Below the pieces are notes generated by a model that saw nothing but the letters and a program-made list of their open reading frames with translations, was not told where the DNA came from and made no database searches. Positions 4,713 through 25,319 of a stretch of DNA of 36,730 nt are shown here, in pieces (position 1 is the stretch's first letter; every line of letters begins with the position of its first letter). Location: the IMG/VR virus record IMGVR_UViG_3300009413_000027, positions 1 through 36,730 of that record; one strand, 5' to 3'. Made by a program: the position numbers and the translations under genes. This stretch comes from a virus.

Positions 4713-5863
4713 TGCCGCATCCTAAAGTCAAGATAGCAGACAATTCTGGAAATGAAGTTGCTGTAACCAGTAACGCTTTAGATGTTAATATAGCTGGTGG
4801 TGCTTCAATTGATATTGGTGATGTAGATATACACCTTAGTGGAAATGTTCCTCTTCTTGGTAATGCTGGTAATGTAGCAGCTGGTGTTCTTCGTGTTACT
4901 CTTGCAGGTGATGACCCTGCGGTTGTTGACCTTGCAGCTATGGAAGCATTGCTTATTACCATAGATAGTGATACTAGTAGTATAAGAAGTAGTGCTAATA
5001 CTCTTGCTGGTCAGTTAAAAACTATTGGTGATGATACATATAGTGAAGGTGTTGTTGGAGGTCGAGTGGCTGCTGTGGTTAGAAACGATACTCTCGCAGC
5101 CCTTGCAGGTACAGATAATGAATTTGCTCCACTTCAAGTAAATGCTGAGGGTGCATTATATACAACTGGAAATACGTTACAGAATGGGCTTCTTCATGGA
5201 GAGAATTTTACAGTAATGGGAGAATCTAAGACAATAGATGGTTCTGCTTTGCCAAATATTGTAGCAGAAGGGCGAAATGCAAGATTAGCTGTCTCAAGGT
5301 CTGGTATCGCATATGCATGTTTAACAGACCCTAATGGTGCTTCTGACCTTGGTACTACAATAACAACTCATTTAAGCGAGATAGAAGGAGCTGTTGAGAC
5401 TATCGAGGGAGTTGTTAGTGGAAGCGAGATGCAGGTTGACGTTGTTGCATCTTTACCTGCTGGAACTAACGCAATTGGTAAACTCTCAGCAAATAGTGGG
5501 GTTGATATTGGAGATGTGGATGTAACGAGTATTGCAGCAGGTACTAATATAATAGGAAAGGTTAGCCATGATATTACTGGTCTTGCAAGTGATGATAATC
5601 CAACTGTTGGTACAAGTGCAGAAGCAATCACTACTGATGGTGCTGATGGTGCTGCTGCTTGTAAGCGTATGGATATTATGGCACATCCAAGTAATACTGG
5701 TGAGATATGGGTAGGTGATGCTGCTGTTACAGTAAATGGATTAAATGGTGGGATAAGACTTCTGCCTGGGGATGTTTATAGTATAGATATTGATAACACA
5801 GGCGATGTCTATGTTATAGCAACTGTTGATGGTGAAAATGTTAGTTATAATTATTTTACATAA
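4712..5863 (+). CDS. Fibre-like virion protein with repeated Gly/Asp strands
   Basis: A 383-aa protein, beta-rich and poor in aromatics, with repeat-like pieces: GDVDI near residue 36 and again GVDIGDVDV near 266, and two copies of an AGTNxIGK motif (about 251 and 277). The C-terminal 75 residues (from KRMDIMAHPSNTGEIWVGD) look like a compact beta-sandwich domain common at the ends of phage fibre or adapter proteins. It overlaps its neighbours by single bases on both sides (TAATG). Likely a tail fibre or fibre-base protein; the family is not identified. Confidence 0.65.
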   Translation: MPHPKVKIADNSGNEVAVTSNALDVNIAGGASIDIGDVDIHLSGNVPLLGNAGNVAAGVLRVTLAGDDPAVVDLAAMEALLITIDSDTSSIRSSANTLAGQLKTIGDDTYSEGVVGGRVAAVVRNDTLAALAGTDNEFAPLQVNAEGALYTTGNTLQNGLLHGENFTVMGESKTIDGSALPNIVAEGRNARLAVSRSGIAYACLTDPNGASDLGTTITTHLSEIEGAVETIEGVVSGSEMQVDVVASLPAGTNAIGKLSANSGVDIGDVDVTSIAAGTNIIGKVSHDITGLASDDNPTVGTSAEAITTDGADGAAACKRMDIMAHPSNTGEIWVGDAAVTVNGLNGGIRLLPGDVYSIDIDNTGDVYVIATVDGENVSYNYFT

Positions 5864-7206
5864 TGGCTAATTCAATTACAAGAGACCATCATAATCTTCG
5901 GAGAAATTTAAAGCTTAATGGTAACTACATCTCAAATGATGGTGGAGATGAGGGGATTAGTATCCAAGATGATGGAGATGTTATTATAAATGGAGATACG
6001 AAGTTATATCTAAATGATGCAGGGGGCGAATATCTTAATAGTGATGGCACAGATTTAACTATTGCTTCGGGTAATAATATAAATATTGATATTGATAAAA
6101 ATCTTACTATTGATTCAGATGCAACTATAAATAATGCCCTAACAGTTAATTGTGATTCTATGGTAAATGCATCTGGTATTGAAGTTCAAATAGATGATAG
6201 TAAAACAAGTGCTTCTAGTGTAAAATTACTATATGCAGACTATAATAAATCTGGAGTAACTGCTAATGGGGATGCAAATCAATCAAAGGGTTTAGCTATA
6301 GAAATGACTGATACTGCAAATACAAATCATTCAGGTAGTAGTGTAAGAATGACTGGAGCACAAATAGATGTAGGTTCGGCAAGTGCAGTTGGAAGTATAA
6401 CGCAAAAAGGTTTAGTCTTGAATGTAGCTGCTGATGGTACTGGTGATGCTGCTAATACTTTTGGTATTGAGATGGAAGTAATGGATGGTGGTACAGATAT
6501 TAAAATGAAAAGTTCTGCTGATACTGGTGACTATTGTACTATAGCTACAACAGCAAATGGTGCAACTACAATAGCAACTGTAGATGATGATGGGGAAGGT
6601 GCTGATTTAACTCTGAATATAGATGGATATGTAGATATTAATAGTGCATCAGGTGAAGATATTACACTTGATTCTGGTGATGATATTATTTTAGATGCTG
6701 ATGGAGATCAAGTGTCAATGAAATTTGGTGGTGCTACAGGACAGATAGATTTCTCAAATGAAAATAGTGGCGATGGTATTGTTAGGCAAATGATAGATGC
6801 AAAAGATTTGGTTATACAGCAGTTTGATGGCAATGAGGTAGCAAGATTTACAGATCGTGGTGATCTAAAGATAACTAATACTGTATATTTTGCTGCTGAA
6901 ACTGCTAATACGATAGGAGATGGTGCAACTGGTGCTATTGATTGGAATGTTAGCCAAAAGCAAAAACTAACAATTACTGGAACAGGTATTACTGTAAACT
7001 TTACTAATCCTGCTGGAGTTTGTAATCTACTTTTGAAGGTTGTACAGGGAGATGGTAGTGATGTTGTTGGTACATGGGATAGTGATATATATTGGGCAGG
7101 GGGTTCTCCTCCTACACTTTCTACAGGAAATGGGGATGTAGATATATTGAGTTTTTATTGGGATGGTTCAAGGTATTATGGTATAGCAAGTTTGGATTTT
7201 TCATAA
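5863..7206 (+). CDS. Tail fibre-like protein
   Basis: A 447-aa protein with an N-terminal segment (ITRDHHNLRRNLKLNGNYI) recalled from fibre proteins of marine tailed phages, followed by long Asp/Gly/Ile strands (for example DITLDSGDDIILDADGDQV) that suggest a beta-helix or triple-beta shaft. The C-terminal about 95 residues (from KQKLTITGTGITVNF) form a distinct aromatic-rich domain ending YYGIASLDFS, which may be the receptor-binding tip. It shares a base with the preceding stop. The fibre role is inferred from composition, order and neighbours. Confidence 0.7.
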   Translation: MANSITRDHHNLRRNLKLNGNYISNDGGDEGISIQDDGDVIINGDTKLYLNDAGGEYLNSDGTDLTIASGNNINIDIDKNLTIDSDATINNALTVNCDSMVNASGIEVQIDDSKTSASSVKLLYADYNKSGVTANGDANQSKGLAIEMTDTANTNHSGSSVRMTGAQIDVGSASAVGSITQKGLVLNVAADGTGDAANTFGIEMEVMDGGTDIKMKSSADTGDYCTIATTANGATTIATVDDDGEGADLTLNIDGYVDINSASGEDITLDSGDDIILDADGDQVSMKFGGATGQIDFSNENSGDGIVRQMIDAKDLVIQQFDGNEVARFTDRGDLKITNTVYFAAETANTIGDGATGAIDWNVSQKQKLTITGTGITVNFTNPAGVCNLLLKVVQGDGSDVVGTWDSDIYWAGGSPPTLSTGNGDVDILSFYWDGSRYYGIASLDFS

Positions 7207-7207
7207 T

Positions 7208-7756
7208 ATGGCATTTAAAGATAATACATTAACATTTGAAGATAGTAAGATACTTACGGATGATGGTAGGGAAGTTATGATGAGTTGGGAAGCACCAATA
7301 ATGGAGAAAAGTGCAGAATATATCTGTCAAAGCAAAGGAGATATTTTAGAGATAGGATTTGGAATGGGTATTTGTTCTGATTATATACAGGCTCAAGATG
7401 TTAATTCTCATACAATAGTTGAGATACATCCACAGATAATTGAGAAGCTAAAGATTTGGGCTTCTGATAAGGATAATGTTGTTATAGTTGAGGGTGATTG
7501 GAATAGTGTTGAACTTGGAACTTATGATGGAATATTATTAGATACATTTGGAGATTTAAATTTAAACAGTTTCAAATCATTTGCTTTGTCTAAAGCTAAA
7601 CCAGGAGCAAAGATAACATATTGGAATAATGAAGAAAAAGAATATAATCCATATTCATTTGATTCTGTTAGTTATGATAGAATAAGTATTACACCAGTTG
7701 ATAATTTATATACAGCTATGAAAGATAATTATTATATGCCAAAGGTAACAGCATAA
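7208..7756 (+). CDS. SAM-dependent methyltransferase, GAMT/arginine methyltransferase 2-like
   Basis: A 182-aa Rossmann-fold methyltransferase. Motif I is ILEIGFGMGIC (46-56); the acidic residue after strand 2 is Glu72 (HTIVEIHP); GDW is at 97-99; motif IV is YDGILLDTFGD (106-116). The preceding MMSWEAPIM block (24-32) and GFGMG glycine loop match guanidinoacetate N-methyltransferase and fungal-type arginine delta-N-methyltransferase (RMT2) rather than DNA methyltransferases. In GAMT an acidic residue in the WE-x-P block and an Asp in the 'DT' motif hold the guanidino group; the equivalents here are Glu28 and Asp112. It is shorter than GAMT (about 236 aa) at the N-terminus. It lies between fibre genes with overlapping ends, so a virion or host arginine/guanidino substrate is possible; the substrate is unknown. 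Confidence 0.75.
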   Translation: MAFKDNTLTFEDSKILTDDGREVMMSWEAPIMEKSAEYICQSKGDILEIGFGMGICSDYIQAQDVNSHTIVEIHPQIIEKLKIWASDKDNVVIVEGDWNSVELGTYDGILLDTFGDLNLNSFKSFALSKAKPGAKITYWNNEEKEYNPYSFDSVSYDRISITPVDNLYTAMKDNYYMPKVTA

Positions 7757-8403
7757 TGGCAACAGTTTATGCAACAACAGCAGATTCTTATGTTAGAAAT
7801 TCATCTACTAATGCTTGGGCACAGGCACAGGGTGATGCAACTACAACTGGAACATTACACAATAATTCTGTTTCATCTAATGCTTTTGGAGTATATAATA
7901 TTTATACAAGTGGTAGAGGTGGAAATTCATATATTTGTCAAAGAAGTTTTCTTCCGTTTGATTTATCAGGTGAAAGTGGCACAATAGATACAGTTTCTTT
8001 AAGTGTATATATGGATAATTTAGGCACATTAAGTCCAGTAAATGTAATAGCTATTGAAGCTACTGCTCTTGCAGGGTCAGCTGATGATTTTGGTAATGTA
8101 TATTCATCAGGAACAACTTTTGGTACGACAATTTCATCAGCAACTACAGTATCAACGACAGCAGGATACCATACTTTTACTATACAATCAGCAGGTAAAA
8201 CAGCTATACAAAACCAAATTGGTTCTGGAACTATAACTATTGCCATTATAGGTGATGCTTATGATAAAGGAGGTCTTGACCCTCCACTTGATGGTAGTTA
8301 TGCAAAAATAAGAATTGATTATGCAAATGGTTCAAACGATGCTTATTTAACTATTACTTATGTGGCAGCAGATAATGCTACATTTTTTGGAGCAAACTTT
8401 TAA
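7756..8403 (+). CDS. Beta-sandwich virion protein (DNRLRE-like)
   Basis: A 215-aa protein. The opening MATVYATTADSYVRNSST, the central RSFLPFDLSG with TIDTVSLSVYM, and the final DAYLTITYV strand resemble DNRLRE/carbohydrate-binding-like beta-sandwich modules that occur in secreted and virion surface proteins. There is no signal peptide, as expected for a capsid-associated protein. It is coupled to the methyltransferase (TAATG) and followed by a small membrane protein. Probably a fibre tip or decoration that binds a surface glycan; this is inference from weak pattern similarity. Confidence 0.6.
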   Translation: MATVYATTADSYVRNSSTNAWAQAQGDATTTGTLHNNSVSSNAFGVYNIYTSGRGGNSYICQRSFLPFDLSGESGTIDTVSLSVYMDNLGTLSPVNVIAIEATALAGSADDFGNVYSSGTTFGTTISSATTVSTTAGYHTFTIQSAGKTAIQNQIGSGTITIAIIGDAYDKGGLDPPLDGSYAKIRIDYANGSNDAYLTITYVAADNATFFGANF

Positions 8404-8404
8404 C

Positions 8405-8557
8405 ATGGAAGAAACACTTAAAACAACAGGAGCAGGAATGGGTGGATGGTGGCTATCAATTAGTGGATGGTTACCAGAAATAGTATCATTAAGTGTGGGA
8501 ATCGCCACATTAGTGTATCTTATTATTAAGATAAGGAAGGAACTGAGAACAAAATAG
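8405..8557 (+). CDS. Small single-span membrane protein, holin-like candidate
   Basis: A 50-aa protein. The ATG at 8405, one base after the previous stop, gives a protein with a Gly/Trp-rich N-terminus (GMGGWWLSISGW) and one membrane helix (about residues 24-43, EIVSLSVGIATLVYLIIKI) followed by a basic tail KIRKELRTK. Size and layout fit class II/III holins of T7-like phages. It opens a cluster of three small membrane-associated proteins. The longer reading frame starting at 8360 overlaps the fibre gene without a ribosome binding site and was not chosen. Confidence 0.6.
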   Translation: MEETLKTTGAGMGGWWLSISGWLPEIVSLSVGIATLVYLIIKIRKELRTK

Positions 8558-8567
8558 GGAGAACAAT

Positions 8568-9347
8568 ATGCCTAAATCGGATAAGGGTGTTGTCAAAAGG
8601 GTAGTAGTAACGCCAGACAAACACTTTCCTTTACACGACCAAAAGGCTATAAACTGTGTCAAGCGAGCCATAGAGATAGTTAAACCAGATGCTTATGTAG
8701 ATCTGGGAGATGTAGGGGAGTTTCATGCTTTTTCTGCTTGGAAGTTCAAGCGTATTAAGAAACCGCCATTGGAATACTTGATTGAAAGTTTTGATCAAGA
8801 TGTAAAAGATGTTAATAAGGGGATGGATCAGATAGATGAATCATTGGATAAAGTTGGATGTAAAGAGAAGTATATTACAGAAGGTAACCATGATAACTGG
8901 CTTAATATGTCAGTTGAAATGTATCCATACCTACCACAGTATAAGTTTGCCAATGCAGTTAAGTTAAAAGATAGGGGGTATACATACTACCCATTCGGAA
9001 AATACCTAAAGATAGGTAAGCTCCGTTTTTATCATGGTCATCAATATGGTGGTCAATATCATGCAGCTAATCACTTGAGAAAGAAGGGCTGCAATATAAT
9101 GTATGGGCATTGGCACGATTTACAGCAGCACTCTGTAACACATGAGGATGGCCCTAAATCTGCATGGAGTATAGGTTGTTTGAAGGATATGAAACCTAAT
9201 GCTAATGAGTGGTTAGCTAATAGGGATGTTAATTGGAGTCATGCGTTTGCTATAGTAGACTTCTACAAAAAAGGGTTGTTTACAGTGCATATAGTACAAA
9301 TAATAAATGGTAAGACTTCATTGTGGGGTGAATTAATTGAGGGTTAA
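8568..9347 (+). CDS. Calcineurin-like metallophosphoesterase
   Basis: A 259-aa protein with all the metal-binding motifs of the family in order: DKH (17-19), DLGD (45-48), GNHDN (106-110), HGH (156-158) and GHWH (180-183). These bind two metal ions and cleave phosphoester bonds in nucleotides, DNA or phosphoproteins. It looks intact. It lies between small membrane proteins in the supposed lysis region, starts after a GGGAGAA ribosome binding site and overlaps the next start (TAATG). The substrate cannot be told from sequence; a role in nucleic-acid or nucleotide turnover late in infection is possible. Confidence 0.85.
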   Translation: MPKSDKGVVKRVVVTPDKHFPLHDQKAINCVKRAIEIVKPDAYVDLGDVGEFHAFSAWKFKRIKKPPLEYLIESFDQDVKDVNKGMDQIDESLDKVGCKEKYITEGNHDNWLNMSVEMYPYLPQYKFANAVKLKDRGYTYYPFGKYLKIGKLRFYHGHQYGGQYHAANHLRKKGCNIMYGHWHDLQQHSVTHEDGPKSAWSIGCLKDMKPNANEWLANRDVNWSHAFAIVDFYKKGLFTVHIVQIINGKTSLWGELIEG

Positions 9348-16397: not shown

Positions 16398-19300
16398 ATG
16401 CCACTACCAAAAGAATACTACGATATACTAAAAACTGGAGATAAACCTTTTAATCCTCCAACTCAACCAAGTCCAACAGGTCTTTATTTTGGGCCAGAAG
16501 ATGCTACAGAAGAAGCAGCTAGTGCTTGGGGCGGTGTAGGTGATTTCTTATGGAGTGCAGGCACTGGCTTTACTTCAGGTATGACTTGGGGTCTTACTGA
16601 TCTAGCAGGAGTGACCGGTCAAGAACCTTGGGAAGAGATGACTGGTACTGAGAAGGCAGGTTGGATACTTGGTGAAGGTGCTTCATTCTTTGCTCCTTGG
16701 GGGCCATTTGGTTTGCTTGGTAAGGGTAGTAAGGCATTAGCTAAAGGTGCTAATAAGTTTGTTGGTAAAGCTGCAGGAGAAGCTGCTGAAACTGGTATAG
16801 CAAGACTTACTGGTGAGACAGGTAAGGCTGTAGCTAAGGCTATGGAGAAGGGTACCCAGTTCTCAGATGATGTAGTTGCTGGTTTAAATAAAGTAGCTAA
16901 AGATGATTTAGGTGTTCGTTGGATTAAGGATCTTAGTGCTACAGGTAAAGCTGCTTTAGATGCTAGTGATAACCTTACTATGGCTGGTACAAGGGCTGTA
17001 CAGAAAGCATTTAAAGATGGTGGCATACCAGATATAGCAACTGCTGATGCAGCTAGAATAGCAGGAGAATTTGTTGAGAGTATTAAAGGTGGAACCTATG
17101 TAAATGATGTAGCTGAATGGGTTACTCGTGGACTAGCTGGTCGTATACCTGATACTGCTACTGGCTTTATGTCTAAGTATTTAGGTATGGTTGCACAAGA
17201 TATGATGTTTATGGGTCTTCATGGATTAGGTTCAGGCAAGATAAAAGCTTTAGCTAATGGTGAAGATTTTGATGCTACAGGTGCTCTTAGTCATGCAGGT
17301 CTAATGTCTCTTGGCTTCCCACTTATTAGAAAGATACCTAATCTTGCTGGTATGGGTCAGGGTGGTATGGTTACTGCCTCTCAAGGTATTAAAGCATATA
17401 TGAATCAATTTAAGAAGACTAACTATAAAGCTATACAAGAAATGCATGGTGATGATGTAGTTAAGAATATGCTTAAAGTTATGGTTCGTGGTGAGAAAAA
17501 GAATTTATGGAGTCGCAGTCAATTAGATGATGCTCATTGGAAAGCTGGTGGTAAAGTATATAAAAGTGCTGAAGAAATAGAAAGAGCTTTACCTAAAATG
17601 AAGATAGATGATACTATAACTCTTCTTAATAAAATGAATAAAACTGTTAATCAAGAGATAATGAAGAAGTGGGGGCCTGAATTTATACTTGATACAATAG
17701 GTTCAGTTCCAAGAATGGGTCTTGGTATATTAGCTATGAATCCTTGGGTTGTTAATAAAGATGCTTGGGGATCTATGGAAGGGCCTGAACTTGCATCACA
17801 TTTATTTATGGCAGCTGTAATGACAAGAGGTAGAGGTGCTTGGGGCCATGCACAGCAGAGAGCTTATTTTGCAGACTTCACTCCATACCATGAAGCTTTA
17901 AATCTTCTAGGTGTTAATACTAAGAATGTTAAAGATATATTAAGGTTCCATGATGGTAAACATCCTTATGAGGGGATGGGGGTAGCTCTAGGTACTCATG
18001 AAGTTGGTGTAGAGATGGTAGATATATTCGATACAGCTTTAAAGACTGCAGAATCTAGACCTAATGCTAGAGATTTCAGTAATCCTGATCATGCTCTTGT
18101 AGTAGATATGGCTAACTTATATAATGTAATTAAGAAAAGTGCTGATCCAAATTTTAAACCTATTAAAGCTCAGACTTTAGATTCAAAAACTCTTAATACA
18201 TTGGCACATAGATTGTCAGGTATTAAGTTTGCTGATGGCAATTCTATCGGAGAGATTGGATATGAAGGTTCTTTAGTTAGGCTTACTCTTGAGCCTGCTA
18301 AGCGTGGGCTTGAAGTATACAAACAAATGCTTTCAGAATTAGGAAGATTGGGATATGGTGTATCTGTTACTGAGGATGGTAGAGTTACTGGTACTCATAT
18401 TATGTCTAATAAAGAAGGCAAACCTATTGATGATGCTAATACTTTTAATCGTGTATTAGATGCTTTAGCTGGTATAAATGAAGCTACTGTTAGATCTGGT
18501 ATAGATGTAACATCTGAAGCTAGTAATTATGAGAGGATAGTTAAAAGGTCTGGACTGACTGAGCCTGAATTTAATCTTAGAACTCGTGAGATTATAGATC
18601 AACATATGGATGTCTTAGGTAGAGAGTATGGTGATAAGAATATATATAGAGATCCAGTTGAAAGTAATCCTATTTGGGAATTTTTCAAACAAGCCAAAGG
18701 AATTGAAGCTGCTGAGAGAGTATACAATATAGCCACAGGAAAGTTCCCTGCTGGCGATCCTACTGGCGATAAGATATTGACTGAGAATATGGATAGTTTA
18801 TTCATGCTTACTGATAGAAAGTATGCAGCATCTATAGATCAATACAAAGGATTAATAAAAAATCTTATTAAAGATCCAAAGACTGATAAAGAGAAAGAAG
18901 CTAATGAAGTTATTGTAGAACATATTAATGATATGCGTCAGCTATTTAATATAAGAAAGAAAATATTAGGAGTTTCATCTAAAGATGTTAGCGAGAAAGG
19001 TTCTATTAGTGCTGAAGGATTATCAATTGTTCAGGGTAAATGGAAAGATATATTTGGAAGTCTACCTAGGGAATGGAAACAGAATTGGGATGCTCATACA
19101 AAACAATTATATATAGAAAGAGTATTTAAAGGTCGTGGATTTGACAGGAGAGCTGTAAATCTTATATCATTTATGTCAGAACATAACCTAGTTCTCCCTG
19201 ATGCTGAGGGTAAGATTAATATGCCTTCTAAAAAAGCAATGATGGATGAACTTTCTGGAAGAAAGATGTCTAAGAAAGAACTTGATCAGTATGAAAGAGC

Positions 19301-22300
19301 TTTAGATACAATCAAGAAAGTACTAGGAGAGGATGTTGTAACTGAGATTGATTGGGCATTTACTGAGACTGGTAAACGTCAGTTAGAATCAGTAGATGTT
19401 AGAGATTATCTTAAAGCTGCTAAGATGCTTGGTAATGAAATGTATGCCGATCTACTTGTTAATACACAAGCTGTGCTTGGTGAAATTGCAGCAGTATCAT
19501 CTGGTACTAGGCAGAGAGTGCATGAAATTTATAATAAAACAACAGATCTTCTTGATACATTAGATCCAGCTAGTGGTAAAAAGCCTGTAGCTGATCCTAT
19601 AAAGGAGATTAATAATCTAAAAGAAGAGTTAATATCATTAGAAAGGGTTGCTAGAAATAAAGATAGTAAGGATGAATTAGGTCAGGCTATTGTACAATTG
19701 CATAAATTAATAGATGCTATTGATCCTGCTACACGTAAATTTAATATTTCTCCAAAGAAAACTCTAACTGAAACAGAACAATTATCTGGAGATGAGTTTG
19801 GAATACATGATGCTTTAACCAGACCTTTACAAACTACCATTGAAAAGATATTCAATAGAGAATATGAAGCTGTAAATAAATTGCAAGAATTAGTAGTCAA
19901 GCTTGAGAATCTTTCCTCACTAGGTAAGGCTGGTCTTGGTTTAGATAAGTCAGATACAATGAGAATTATTGAAGATATGTCAAGACAGTGGCATGAAATA
20001 TATAAAAATAAAACTGGCGATCATACTAAAGTATTATCAGAACTTATTGCTGATGTTAATAAGAAAGGTTTCTTTGGAGATGCTTTAACCTTGCTAGAAA
20101 GTGTTGACGCTAGGATTAACCGTGAAGTAATTCTTAAAAATGAACATAGTCCACTCAATGAAGATGGTGTGCGTATGTCTGAAGCTTTAGAGAATGCTTA
20201 TAAAACTCATGAACATCACAGGTCTGTAACTGAAATCTTAAAAGATTATGGTCTTGTAGATAAGGATGGTAAGATAGATGAAAGCTTTAGAAATGCTGTA
20301 ACTGCAAATCCTCGTAAGGCTTTACTTGATAATGTTAAGCCTAAAATATATGCTCAGACAGACAAATCTATAACTCAAAAGGATCGTGAGTGGAGAAAGT
20401 TTAAAGAGAATGATGCTATAGAATTATTAACAAACATATATAATTCTAAGCCTATCAATAGAGTTAAGATACTTGGTATAACTAGAGATGGTAAGCAACG
20501 TGGTATTGTAGAATTTAATAATAATGCTCCACACATACAGCATCCTAATACTCAATACTTTTCAGACAAAGGATTTAAAGTACATTGGATAGATGATACT
20601 ATGAGTGTTGATATTGGCATAGATGGTAAGCTTAGAAATGCTAGTATTGATTCCTTTAACAATCCAGATTTAATTCAGAAGTTTTTAAACGAAGCATTAC
20701 GTACAGATAATATTACTAAAGAAATACTTGATGGCTTTAAGTCTATAGATCATGGTATCAGTGAGAAAGATGTAAGAAAGATTCTTAAAAATCCAACTGA
20801 CTATGTATTCTATTTAAGACTTTCTCCTATGGATAAGATGATGTTTGTAGCTACTGATAAGAATCTTAAACTTATGGATACTGAGTTTGAAACTTGGTAT
20901 AATGATACTGCAGGTAGATTGAAGGGTAAGAATAAAACTACCTTTGAATCTATGTTTAAAGATTTGTTAGAGAAGCCTAATACATCACGTGCTATTGTAG
21001 AACTTAAAATGTTATTACCTTATTTAGATCATGCTGGTAAGAGGAGTGAAGTTGATAAGATGATAGCTGAATATGCTGGTGATGCTAATCCTCAAACACT
21101 TGCTAAGATTCAAGCTAATATGTATAAGCGTGGTTTCTTGTCTGATGGTGGAACTACACAGCCAATGAGAACTGAAGTTCTTAGATGGGTACAAGGTCAT
21201 CATCCAAATAAAGATGTAAGAGATGAAGCTAAACGTATTATTAGAAATGGTGGATTCGTAGTAGGTGTCATAGGTGATAAAGCTGCAGAGGGAGAGGGTG
21301 GAAGAGCTCATCCTCTAAATATAGAATCATTAGAGCTAGGGCAATTGCAAGTTATAGGTAATCAAGCCAGTGGATTGATAAAAGAATTAGCTCTAGCACA
21401 ACAAAGATCACTTGGAGATATGCCTAGTTTATTGAACTCACTACTTGATGGTGGTAAGTTTGCATCTGAAAAAGTTACGAAACTTGTTATGGCTCAGAAG
21501 GGTATGCTTGATACAGATTTTAGCAACAGTCCTAACGGTGCTAAGACAATCATATTTGCTACAGGCAATAATCAAATGTTAGGTAAGGGATATCTTATAT
21601 ATCATCCAGATATAGCAGCACAAATGCCTAAAGATGTAGACATAATGTTAGGAGAATCTTCTGCTAAAACTTATAGTGGTATAGCTGTAGATGGTAATCC
21701 TCTCTCCCCACATGATATATCACAAGCAGGGCCTAAGTGGCAATCTTCAATTAAGAATATGGGTAATGGTAATAAAATGCTTATGCCTGTTGAAAGTCTT
21801 GGAATATCCTTTACATCTAAAAGTGAGAGTGGTGTGGCTATATCTCCTTCCATATTTGATTTTCAATCTCCAGCAACTATAGATAAAGCTATAACATGGA
21901 TGGGATTTGAATCTAAATTAAGAGAAATTGGGGTGCAATGGAATACAGTTCATAGAGATGGTGCTAAGTTAGCTGAATGGCTATATGAGATAGGGCAATC
22001 TGAGGGTAATCCTTTAGATAAGGGCGATACTGGCCTCTCTAAGCTACTTTTTGAGTATGGGGCTATGCCTAACAACCCTTTGGTACAAAAGGCCCTTAGA
22101 AGGCTATTACGGAGCTCAAACTATAAACATTTAGGCAAGGTACCCAATCAAGGTGGTGGTGAAGATAACTTTATAGTACCTAATATTGATGGAAAATTAT
22201 CAATACCATTGTATGCAGATCTACATGGAGCTCCTGCATTCCCTGGAGATACTGTAACTAAGGATAGGATAGATAGAGTTTCTGTTAATTATGGTGGTAT

Positions 22301-25300
22301 AGGTCTCAATAAACATACTGGAGGCAGACAATTAGGTAATGGTATTAACTCTAATCTTGAAGGTGAGAGATTTATATTTAGAGATGGTAATGGTGTAGAT
22401 GTAGTTATAGGTATGGAGGGTGGCAAGTTTAAATACTTCAGCACATTCTATGATAAGGTTGGTGAAGGTATTAACTATAGAGGTACTGATAAGGCTGGAG
22501 CAGATGTTTTCAATGATGCTAATATTAAGATGGATTCTAATTCTCAACAGAAAGCTAAAAAGCAAATGGAAGAGCTTTCTAGATTAGTTAAGAAATATGA
22601 CTTAAATTATAGAGATGTTTTTAGATTATTACAAGGAGAGGTAGTAAGTTCTACCGATAGCAAGGGTCTTATTACTTCATTTGATATGAAAGTTGATAAA
22701 GCTTTAAAAATGCAGTTTGGTCTTATGTCTCATGCTGTACCAGTAGTTGGTCATGACAAAGTTATATTCCGTGTAGAGAAAATTATGGATAACATGGATG
22801 GATTAACTGAAGTTAATGTACATGATCTTCGTACTGTAATGCAGAGGGATAATGATGGGGATCACTTATTTACTCATACAAAGTTACCTTGGGATGTATT
22901 TGTAGGATTTGCTAAAGAGAATGGCCGTAAAGATGACTTTAGAATGTTTGAAAGAGAACAAGTATTAGATCAGAACTATATAAATATATTTGGTATAGGT
23001 AATAATGGTAAGGTAGGAGAGAAGCCAGAGCAGGTTGGTTTTCATAGTTATGCTGCTAAATTACATAAAGCTAAGATGATGACTGGAACTATTATAGGTG
23101 CAAGAAATGCTATATCATGGCTTAATAGATTAGGCTTTAAGATGGGTAAGGATCCAGTATTAAAAGATTTCCTTGCTAATAAGGGTATGGATTCTTCTGA
23201 GTGGCAGACTTTAGATAAGTTCTATGATACTATACAGAATGCTTTAGATATACATAGTGGTATACATGGAGCTATATCTAGTAAGCAGAAGCTTAGAGAT
23301 TTCTTATTCTTTGGCCATGCAGAGAAGTATGCTGAACCTACAGGGGATCCAGTATTTGATAAGCATAATCAACCAGGATTAGGATTCTTTAAAGATCCTA
23401 ATTTTGGCAAGACTAGAATACAAAAAGAAATGTTCTATGAAATATTGAATACGTTAAAGAAAGCTAATATGATTCAAAATGAAACTTGGGATGAGAAGGG
23501 TAGTCGTGCTCCTGAGCCATTTGAAATTAAGAATGCTTATTATGATATGAAGGGATTCTTCTCTAATCCTACTGGATATTTAGCTAAGAAACTTGCTAGA
23601 AAGATAGGTCGTGTTAGAGATAGGGATCAAAGAGATCTTCTAATGTCTGAATATGCAGATATGTTTTATGGTGACACTATAGATATAAGAAAGCGTCAAG
23701 GGAAAGGAAGTAGAGAGTCATTATATTTTGATATTCTAAAAGGAAATCATGATAGTATAATGAAAAAGATATTTAGCTTTGATAATATACCATCTGATGA
23801 TCCTGCTTCTGCTTTCGATATGTCTATTGGTGGTCATGTAATGAAAAACTTACTTAAAACTAATGGATTTTGGGATGCAAACTATGAAGGCTTAGTAGAA
23901 AGAAGAGGTACTGGTGAAGAATTATTTAATAAGGCTGGATTCTTTGTCAAAAATATAGAAAGCTTTGTAGAAACTGCACGTATGTTTGGGGATAAACCTC
24001 TTGAATTTATGAAAACAAATGATATAACTGTTGATACATTTGATACTAGACCTGTATCTCCAGAGATAAGAAATGCTTTAAACAATGGTATACTTAAAGA
24101 ATTAATACATCGTCAGCACAGAAATGTGATGGGAACTCTTGAATATTTTAGAGCTGAGAAGTTTGCTAATCCTGATAAGGTAGCAAAGCTACAGAATAGA
24201 TTAGCTAACTTACAATCAGCTATGGATATAATGGATCAGCAGATAGCTAAGGATATGGTTATTGATAGACCTGATACTCAGATTATGAATATAAAGAAAT
24301 CAGGAGAGAAAAACTTTAAGTATTTAGAAAAGGGTAAGAAGGTATCTGTATATAGGATTAGGGGAGATGTTAAAGTTATAGAAGAACCTGCAGAGGGTGC
24401 AAAGCCTAGTTTATTTACTCATGGTGTAGATGGTAAGCGATTAAATTATGGTCAGTTAGAATTTGTAGGTACATTTGATAATAAAGGTAAGATGAGAGTT
24501 CAAGAGGGCTATACATATGTCGTTGATAGAAAGCCTAAGAAGATGATATCTCAGACTGGCAATGAAGCTAGATATTCTCAAGCATTATTTAAAGCTACAT
24601 ACGGTAATGAGATTACACCTGAAAGATTTATTAAAGAAAATGTAAATGATTTTAGAGATGATGTGCGTCAACTTAGAGCTTCTATTAGTATGGACTATAT
24701 TAAGACTGTACAGAATGCTTTATCTAGCAGAGTATTGAGTGATGGATTGTTTGCTCTGCAGCAAGCTAAGGAAGGTAGAGCTATAGCTGAGTTTATGGAA
24801 CGTTGGGAACCATCTATATCAGGCGGTGACCCAATAAAGTTATTACTTAGGTATCTATTACAACCTCAACTCACACCTTCATCTTATTATAGAGATGCTC
24901 AAGGTCATGAGATGCCTGCATATAAAACTAATGAACATTTATATAAAACAGTTATGCAATGGGCAGAGAATAATGGTCAGAGAGAATTTGTTAAAGAACT
25001 CGTTAAAGATGTAGAGCATTTTGCTTCCGGCAGAGATACTGAGATTGACATTAGCAGTTATGAAAGAGGTAGAATGGATCGGTTTGATTACTCACAACTT
25101 GGAGATATGGCTAATCCAGTTAGATCTTTAGCTAAGCATTTGAATTTATTCTTTGCTTCACCAATATTAAATGATAAATTAAAGCAGGTGATTCCAAGAG
25201 GAAAGGGTAAAACTGAGACAGTAATAGGTAGGGATGGTCAAAAGATACCTATACGTAGAGTACCTAATAAGGATGAGTACTGGAATATACAAACAGATCA

Positions 25301-25319
25301 AACAGGTGAAGGTTGCTAA
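16398..25319 (+). CDS. Giant 2973-aa internal virion protein with DxDGD motif; candidate virion RNA polymerase
   Basis: This single ORF takes up nearly a quarter of the window. The N-terminus (86-110, WILGEGASFFAPWGPFGLLG) and residues about 268-325 are hydrophobic and Gly-rich, consistent with a protein that crosses or enters membranes on ejection. Residues about 1729-1757 hold GKGYLIYHPDIAAQ... ending in SSAK (Lys1757). Residues 2100-2160 hold MSHAVPVVGHDKVIFRVEKI then RDNDGDHLFTH, with Asp2151, Asp2153 and Asp2155. Multi-subunit-type RNA polymerases carry Lys in a first double-psi barrel and a D-x-DGD metal loop in the second; crAss-like phages carry both in one virion-packaged chain. The order and about 395-residue spacing fit, but the middle Asn is unusual (normally Phe/Tyr). 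Otherwise it is a gp16-like ejection protein. Confidence 0.6.
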   Translation: MPLPKEYYDILKTGDKPFNPPTQPSPTGLYFGPEDATEEAASAWGGVGDFLWSAGTGFTSGMTWGLTDLAGVTGQEPWEEMTGTEKAGWILGEGASFFAPWGPFGLLGKGSKALAKGANKFVGKAAGEAAETGIARLTGETGKAVAKAMEKGTQFSDDVVAGLNKVAKDDLGVRWIKDLSATGKAALDASDNLTMAGTRAVQKAFKDGGIPDIATADAARIAGEFVESIKGGTYVNDVAEWVTRGLAGRIPDTATGFMSKYLGMVAQDMMFMGLHGLGSGKIKALANGEDFDATGALSHAGLMSLGFPLIRKIPNLAGMGQGGMVTASQGIKAYMNQFKKTNYKAIQEMHGDDVVKNMLKVMVRGEKKNLWSRSQLDDAHWKAGGKVYKSAEEIERALPKMKIDDTITLLNKMNKTVNQEIMKKWGPEFILDTIGSVPRMGLGILAMNPWVVNKDAWGSMEGPELASHLFMAAVMTRGRGAWGHAQQRAYFADFTPYHEALNLLGVNTKNVKDILRFHDGKHPYEGMGVALGTHEVGVEMVDIFDTALKTAESRPNARDFSNPDHALVVDMANLYNVIKKSADPNFKPIKAQTLDSKTLNTLAHRLSGIKFADGNSIGEIGYEGSLVRLTLEPAKRGLEVYKQMLSELGRLGYGVSVTEDGRVTGTHIMSNKEGKPIDDANTFNRVLDALAGINEATVRSGIDVTSEASNYERIVKRSGLTEPEFNLRTREIIDQHMDVLGREYGDKNIYRDPVESNPIWEFFKQAKGIEAAERVYNIATGKFPAGDPTGDKILTENMDSLFMLTDRKYAASIDQYKGLIKNLIKDPKTDKEKEANEVIVEHINDMRQLFNIRKKILGVSSKDVSEKGSISAEGLSIVQGKWKDIFGSLPREWKQNWDAHTKQLYIERVFKGRGFDRRAVNLISFMSEHNLVLPDAEGKINMPSKKAMMDELSGRKMSKKELDQYERALDTIKKVLGEDVVTEIDWAFTETGKRQLESVDVRDYLKAAKMLGNEMYADLLVNTQAVLGEIAAVSSGTRQRVHEIYNKTTDLLDTLDPASGKKPVADPIKEINNLKEELISLERVARNKDSKDELGQAIVQLHKLIDAIDPATRKFNISPKKTLTETEQLSGDEFGIHDALTRPLQTTIEKIFNREYEAVNKLQELVVKLENLSSLGKAGLGLDKSDTMRIIEDMSRQWHEIYKNKTGDHTKVLSELIADVNKKGFFGDALTLLESVDARINREVILKNEHSPLNEDGVRMSEALENAYKTHEHHRSVTEILKDYGLVDKDGKIDESFRNAVTANPRKALLDNVKPKIYAQTDKSITQKDREWRKFKENDAIELLTNIYNSKPINRVKILGITRDGKQRGIVEFNNNAPHIQHPNTQYFSDKGFKVHWIDDTMSVDIGIDGKLRNASIDSFNNPDLIQKFLNEALRTDNITKEILDGFKSIDHGISEKDVRKILKNPTDYVFYLRLSPMDKMMFVATDKNLKLMDTEFETWYNDTAGRLKGKNKTTFESMFKDLLEKPNTSRAIVELKMLLPYLDHAGKRSEVDKMIAEYAGDANPQTLAKIQANMYKRGFLSDGGTTQPMRTEVLRWVQGHHPNKDVRDEAKRIIRNGGFVVGVIGDKAAEGEGGRAHPLNIESLELGQLQVIGNQASGLIKELALAQQRSLGDMPSLLNSLLDGGKFASEKVTKLVMAQKGMLDTDFSNSPNGAKTIIFATGNNQMLGKGYLIYHPDIAAQMPKDVDIMLGESSAKTYSGIAVDGNPLSPHDISQAGPKWQSSIKNMGNGNKMLMPVESLGISFTSKSESGVAISPSIFDFQSPATIDKAITWMGFESKLREIGVQWNTVHRDGAKLAEWLYEIGQSEGNPLDKGDTGLSKLLFEYGAMPNNPLVQKALRRLLRSSNYKHLGKVPNQGGGEDNFIVPNIDGKLSIPLYADLHGAPAFPGDTVTKDRIDRVSVNYGGIGLNKHTGGRQLGNGINSNLEGERFIFRDGNGVDVVIGMEGGKFKYFSTFYDKVGEGINYRGTDKAGADVFNDANIKMDSNSQQKAKKQMEELSRLVKKYDLNYRDVFRLLQGEVVSSTDSKGLITSFDMKVDKALKMQFGLMSHAVPVVGHDKVIFRVEKIMDNMDGLTEVNVHDLRTVMQRDNDGDHLFTHTKLPWDVFVGFAKENGRKDDFRMFEREQVLDQNYINIFGIGNNGKVGEKPEQVGFHSYAAKLHKAKMMTGTIIGARNAISWLNRLGFKMGKDPVLKDFLANKGMDSSEWQTLDKFYDTIQNALDIHSGIHGAISSKQKLRDFLFFGHAEKYAEPTGDPVFDKHNQPGLGFFKDPNFGKTRIQKEMFYEILNTLKKANMIQNETWDEKGSRAPEPFEIKNAYYDMKGFFSNPTGYLAKKLARKIGRVRDRDQRDLLMSEYADMFYGDTIDIRKRQGKGSRESLYFDILKGNHDSIMKKIFSFDNIPSDDPASAFDMSIGGHVMKNLLKTNGFWDANYEGLVERRGTGEELFNKAGFFVKNIESFVETARMFGDKPLEFMKTNDITVDTFDTRPVSPEIRNALNNGILKELIHRQHRNVMGTLEYFRAEKFANPDKVAKLQNRLANLQSAMDIMDQQIAKDMVIDRPDTQIMNIKKSGEKNFKYLEKGKKVSVYRIRGDVKVIEEPAEGAKPSLFTHGVDGKRLNYGQLEFVGTFDNKGKMRVQEGYTYVVDRKPKKMISQTGNEARYSQALFKATYGNEITPERFIKENVNDFRDDVRQLRASISMDYIKTVQNALSSRVLSDGLFALQQAKEGRAIAEFMERWEPSISGGDPIKLLLRYLLQPQLTPSSYYRDAQGHEMPAYKTNEHLYKTVMQWAENNGQREFVKELVKDVEHFASGRDTEIDISSYERGRMDRFDYSQLGDMANPVRSLAKHLNLFFASPILNDKLKQVIPRGKGKTETVIGRDGQKIPIRRVPNKDEYWNIQTDQTGEGC

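Follow-up and report, generated by a model that had tools for sequence, protein, structure and literature searches.

What would a phage methylate with an enzyme whose nearest solved relatives act on a guanidino group, and why would the gene for it lie next to a tail-fibre gene? These questions are raised by the stretch of DNA analysed here (hereafter, the window), which comprises 36,730 nucleotides, positions 1 to 36,730 of the IMG/VR virus record IMGVR_UViG_3300009413_000027. The open reading frame concerned occupies positions 7208 to 7756 on the plus strand, starts with ATG and encodes 182 amino acids, and the motifs MMSWEAPIM (residues 24-32), EIGFGMG (48-54) and LLDTFGD (110-116) were found in it exactly as stated in the original prediction. 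Because hundreds of viral homologues exist, we regard it as a real gene under selection. A phmmer search against the PDB gave human guanidinoacetate methyltransferase (GAMT; 3orh, E = 1.5e-14) as the sole strong match, and a profile search with the family reached GAMT at E = 1.1e-20, with other sequence matches far weaker. An AlphaFold2 model obtained with 22 viral homologues as input (pLDDT 88, pTM 0.86) was then compared with known structures by Foldseek; the best five PDB matches were all GAMT, including 3orh, 1xcj and 1khh (TM 0.73-0.83 relative to the query, E 4e-13 to 2e-10), and the next folds were spermidine synthases at about 1e-7. Pfam, NCBIfam and PHROGs yielded generic methyltransferase matches, all of them weak. 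No match was found to the catalytic domain of canonical PRMTs (types I-III) in Pfam or NCBIfam, nor to DNA-methyltransferase families in Pfam, NCBIfam or PHROGs. An identity as a DNA or RNA methyltransferase was rejected, as the RrnaAD and KsgA matches were weak, generic and far below cut-offs in comparison with that to GAMT; the placement of the enzyme in the GAMT superfamily, rather than among DNA methyltransferases, was thus borne out.

We then focused on the two acidic residues expected to hold the guanidino group. Glu28 (codon 7289..7291, plus strand) is aligned with GAMT Glu45/46, under the segment WETPYM of the phmmer alignment, while Asp112 (codon 7541..7543, plus strand) lies under DGILYDTY and is aligned with Asp134/135, the proton acceptor of GAMT. 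Glu28 and Asp112, together with W27, W98, N140, Y168 and Y175, are unvarying in all 104 non-identical viral homologues. Closest relatives of a generic kind lacking the two acids, which had been named as the outcome that would speak against the prediction, were not what the searches returned, as GAMT is nearest and both acids are kept throughout. We take Glu45, the counterpart of Glu28, to be the second guanidino-binding acid of GAMT. In GAMT, the guanidino nitrogen passes its proton to Asp134, the counterpart of Asp112 (PMC12471008, PMC12842229).

The phage enzyme has in common with GAMT the fold, the W-E...M motif, the E(V/I)GFGM motif I, the catalytic Asp and a C-terminal Tyr. Judged by its sequence, it is a member of the GAMT superfamily with a GAMT-like core, yet it is not GAMT proper, because it has neither the LTSWG loop downstream of TYCN nor the lid helix at the C-terminus. 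In the alignment, T(Y/W)WNN stands at the position of the loop in the phage proteins, with a short, variable loop behind it, and the C-terminal helix of GAMT-like proteins has no counterpart in them; the cyanobacterial GAMT-like protein L181 retains the mammalian CNLTSWG loop. The phage enzyme is shorter than GAMT (182 against 236 residues). At the N-terminus, where GAMT has a lid over its active site, it has about 18 residues fewer, and an aromatic residue (F/Y) is kept at position 3 in 100 of the 104 homologues. In GAMT, the L-T-S loop after TYCN presumably binds the carboxylate of guanidinoacetate, and the loss of this loop and of the C-terminal helix would be expected to leave the pocket more open and to suit a substrate lacking such a carboxylate. 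The phage gene also differs from GAMT in adjoining fibre and adhesin genes and in having a protein as its predicted substrate.

At least 450 matches to the methyltransferase family were found in IMG/VR, and two viral scans confirmed by tblastn gave 430 and 453 related stretches, of which the best 80 each were retrieved; L-numbers are used here as labels of the homologous loci and contigs so obtained. On these matches the enzyme appears to be widespread, occurring in many uncultured phages. One retrieved locus, L086, was discarded as a false, TrmB-like match. The annotated phage collection contained a single record with the enzyme, the unannotated 634-kb LR745206.1 (L024), and gave no match to three queries with the protein encoded downstream of the enzyme, described below. 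The megaphage-type homologues of L024 (positions 8001-8546) and L101 (2466-3047) have Asp-Gly, and not Asp-Thr, at 112-113; they are 59% identical to each other, and that of L024 is 48% identical to the window enzyme. Relatives from bacteria are both rare and remote (37-41% identity), and four of them (L083, L084, L182 and L183) have their core in common with the phage enzyme. GAMT-like genes were present in three of the 299 genomes in a sample of one bacterial phylum and in one of the 244 in a sample of another, and a host origin of the enzyme was rejected, as no close bacterial source appeared among these two samples.

The gene upstream of the enzyme (5863..7206, plus strand, 447 amino acids) encodes a tail fibre with a C-terminal domain of the ...DILSFYWD...ASLDF type, and its residues 356-442, the C-terminal 90 or so, match the PHROG tail-fibre families phrog_9017/22179. 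One base separates the fibre stop from the enzyme start, and the enzyme stop overlaps the ATG of the following gene (TAATG), which encodes a CBM96/DNRLRE-like beta-sandwich protein of 215 amino acids (7756..8403, plus strand), here called the partner. The predicted placement between two fibre genes hence holds on the upstream side, the downstream gene being of this other kind. The cassette is followed by a metallophosphoesterase gene (8568-9347; PHROG 221, E = 2.2e-25), and a similar protein with a VTPDKHFPL motif comes after the partner-position gene in the enzyme-less contigs L225 and L248. Further along the plus strand, the window holds a very large open reading frame (16398-25319, 2973 amino acids); neither tRNAs nor Rfam families were found in the window.

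The same arrangement recurs across loci. In almost all of the viral loci, the methyltransferase gene comes after a fibre gene, in most cases with overlapping stop and start codons, and the gene 3' of the enzyme encodes 215-250 amino acids, with a 1-base stop/start overlap being typical on either side of the enzyme. The partner gene adjoins the enzyme in essentially every locus with flanking sequence; in L164 and L171 the order of the two is swapped while adjacency is kept, and in incomplete loci the start of the partner is likewise present beyond the enzyme. Moreover, when the C-terminal half alone of one partner clade was used as query, 17 of 17 contigs were enzyme-positive, all of them already in the retrieved set of the enzyme scan. 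This gene pairing lends support to the earlier suggestion that the position of the enzyme hints at virion-protein modification. It also bears on the possibility that the enzyme is an auxiliary metabolic gene methylating a free guanidino metabolite (guanidinoacetate, arginine, agmatine or a polyamine-like compound), which would agree with its nearest solved relatives being GAMT, a small-molecule enzyme, and with spermidine synthases coming next by fold. Nevertheless, the enzyme sits in a fibre module and not beside metabolic genes, is coupled to a structural-type partner gene, lacks the GAMT loop after TYCN, and covaries with one partner residue (see below), and we consider a small-molecule substrate quite unlikely.

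As a protein substrate, the original prediction had suggested, as a possibility, an arginine on a fibre or on a host protein. The upstream fibres are strongly mosaic at the N-terminus and fall into two main types at the C-terminus, and the fibre types have no arginine in common. The fibre was rejected as general substrate, a role that its sequences make unlikely, because the complete 167-residue fibre of L044 contains no arginine at all; the evidence points instead to Arg54 of the downstream partner. The exceptions to the gene pairing are L024 and its relative L101, where a fibre gene lies upstream and no partner was detected within the sequence examined; their enzymes therefore need another substrate, perhaps an arginine of the upstream fibre.

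As to the partner itself, its fold model (pLDDT 88) retrieved by Foldseek an alginate-binding CBM (7vbo, E = 1e-6, prob 1.00, TM about 0.5-0.6) and a chondroitin-sulfate CBM (8wab, E = 1.7e-5), and the model thus assigns it the CBM96 fold. Among 31 partners, NF033679 matched four (best E = 8.5e-6) and PF24517 five (best E = 7.6e-4), the latter scoring below its curated cut-off in all members scored individually. The likeness to CBM96/DNRLRE proteins (7vbo, NF033679, PF24517) hence lies in the fold, while the partner differs in falling below the Pfam cut-offs, in being a free-standing phage protein and in having a C-terminal tail matched to the fibre type. In CBM96, alginate is bound by a positively charged groove of basic residues, and the substitution R36E abolishes binding (PMC9971899); 7vbo gave no sequence match to the partner from which Arg54 could be mapped onto CBM96 residues.

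In all 77 scored loci (68 by script and nine assigned by eye from the script output), the tail of the partner corresponds to the type of fibre C-terminus encoded upstream: fibres of type 1 are paired with tails ending in xGxNF (...FFGxNF-like), and those of type 2 with IGKV-like tails (...ANIGKVxGV-like). The window tail lies at 8370-8403, L065 provides a further example, and the match is also seen in the enzyme-less L224. Since its tail follows the fibre type, the partner is suggested to dock on the fibre, with the C-terminal tail possibly serving as docking tag; by way of analogy, and with no homology claimed, adhesins are encoded after fibre genes in other phages. In nine further contigs (L230, L233, L234, L236, L238, L243, L245, L247 and L248), unrelated proteins, often larger (680-720 amino acids), carry the same ...NAxFFGxNF tail and are encoded directly behind fibres of type 1; this points to a tail module by which various tip proteins are joined to a single type of fibre. 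In the window, a consensus scan also placed a terminator-like hairpin with a T-run at 8360-8393, within the 3' end of the partner gene and over the conserved FFG-tail codons.

To compare partners with and without the enzyme, enzyme-less homologues were sought with partner C-terminal halves, that is, with queries blind to the Arg54 motif, and the whole record of 21 contigs with such homologues was searched without finding the enzyme, which may sit elsewhere in those genomes, because the contigs are fragments. Besides the start Met, Arg54 (codon 7915..7917, plus strand) and Arg63 (7942..7944, plus strand) are the sole residues invariant in all enzyme-positive partners. In the fold model, strands 44-53 and 56-69 form a beta-hairpin whose tip, a two-residue turn, holds Arg54, usually as part of GRGG, and Arg63 lies within the second of these strands. 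Arg54 was present in 94 of 94 partners with the enzyme against at most four of ten without it (Fisher p = 1.4e-7), four being an upper count, since doubtful enzyme-less rows, several of which are divergent and uncertainly aligned at this position, were scored as retained. The enzyme-less rows display K in L199, L205 and L211, and another residue or a gap in L226, L212 and L215. Arg63, which served as internal control, is found in 94 of 94 partners with and ten of ten without the enzyme, and is probably structural.

The IQ-TREE phylogeny of the partners indicates nine changes of the enzyme-less label, at least five of them forced by well-supported branches, and Arg54 was lost five or six times independently, each time on branches without the enzyme. 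These branches account for 12.6% of the tree length, and the naive probability of the losses falling on them alone is 3e-5 to 4e-6. The cleanest case is that of the sisters L040, with the enzyme, and L199, the closest enzyme-less relative (support 100/97), whose fibre C-termini are 74% and partners 71% identical: at Arg54, ASRGGGTVYT is replaced by SVKGGGTAYT, RGGG having become KGGG. In L199 and L206 the fibre stop runs straight into the partner start, and L203, a near-copy of L199, has the same architecture. In the enzyme-positive L209, L237 and L244, Arg54 is retained although the Gly behind it is replaced or shifted.

Two other explanations of this pattern were weighed. The same chemistry could be directed at Arg63, or at an arginine in the fibre or in some host protein, with Arg54 covarying indirectly, e.g., through contact with the enzyme during assembly. 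Such a reading finds backing in the invariance of Arg63 and in the enzymes of L024 and L101, which come without a partner. However, Arg63 stays in all ten enzyme-less homologues, one complete upstream fibre is devoid of arginine, and a target in the host alone would leave the gene pairing unexplained, so that we judge it unlikely. It could also be that Arg54 is kept purely as a glycan-binding residue, and that the methyltransferase, although linked to the partner, acts elsewhere. The basic groove of CBM96 and the effect of R36E on alginate binding favour this, as do the enzyme-less L224 (GRGS, 66-kb contig) and L225 (GRGG, 6.9-kb fragment), whose motifs indicate that Arg54 can persist without the enzyme and count against our preferred explanation. 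Nevertheless, neither the confinement of the five or six losses to enzyme-less branches nor the retention of the Arg in L209, L237 and L244 despite the replaced Gly would be explained, and we hold this account to be very unlikely.

Overall, a guanidino-methylating fold, a coupled neighbour and an exposed arginine whose retention hinges on the presence of the enzyme suggest that a dedicated protein-arginine methyltransferase is at work, and we lean, by a little, towards a phage-encoded, single-substrate N-methyltransferase acting on Arg54 of an adhesin associated with the fibre. In such a mechanism, translational coupling would let the enzyme, built on a GAMT/RMT2-type guanidino-methyltransferase fold, be made in step with its single substrate. 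SAM would donate a methyl group to the guanidino side chain of Arg54, which lies at the beta-hairpin tip (consensus G/A/S-R-G-G), with Glu28 and Asp112 holding and deprotonating the guanidinium in the manner of GAMT Glu45 and Asp134. The partner, docked on the fibre, would probably be an adhesin for host glycans, and the methylation of Arg54 might tune or stabilise its glycan-binding site. For the broader proposal, namely that this is a widespread RMT2-like cassette in which the enzyme is dedicated to one arginine of a translationally coupled glycan-binding adhesin, so that the phage marks its own host-recognition protein, we find the case evenly balanced. If true, protein methylation would join the ways in which a phage can tune receptor binding, and the GAMT/RMT2 family would extend to viruses; as the cassette names enzyme, substrate and residue, the proposal is testable with two small genes.

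RMT2 belongs to the same GAMT-related family, and resembles the phage enzyme, by description and with no membership claimed for the latter, in that a single arginine of a single protein is the target, as is proposed here. It is a type IV protein-arginine delta-N-methyltransferase that methylates Arg67 of Rpl12 and has been described as restricted to fungi and plants (PMC3365026), whereas the phage enzyme is viral. No dedicated protein-arginine methyltransferase encoded by a phage was found in the open-access literature, and no claim to priority is made. In 2026, methylation of phage proteins was reported as a first detection in three Cellulophaga phages, where mass spectrometry revealed Arg and Lys methylation of structural and tail-fibre proteins; these phages encode no known methyltransferase, and host enzymes were inferred to be responsible (PMC13288928). 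Both cases concern arginine methylation of virion proteins, measured there and proposed from sequence here, but the Cellulophaga phages would rely on enzymes of the host, whereas the cassette described here would supply a dedicated enzyme encoded by the phage itself.
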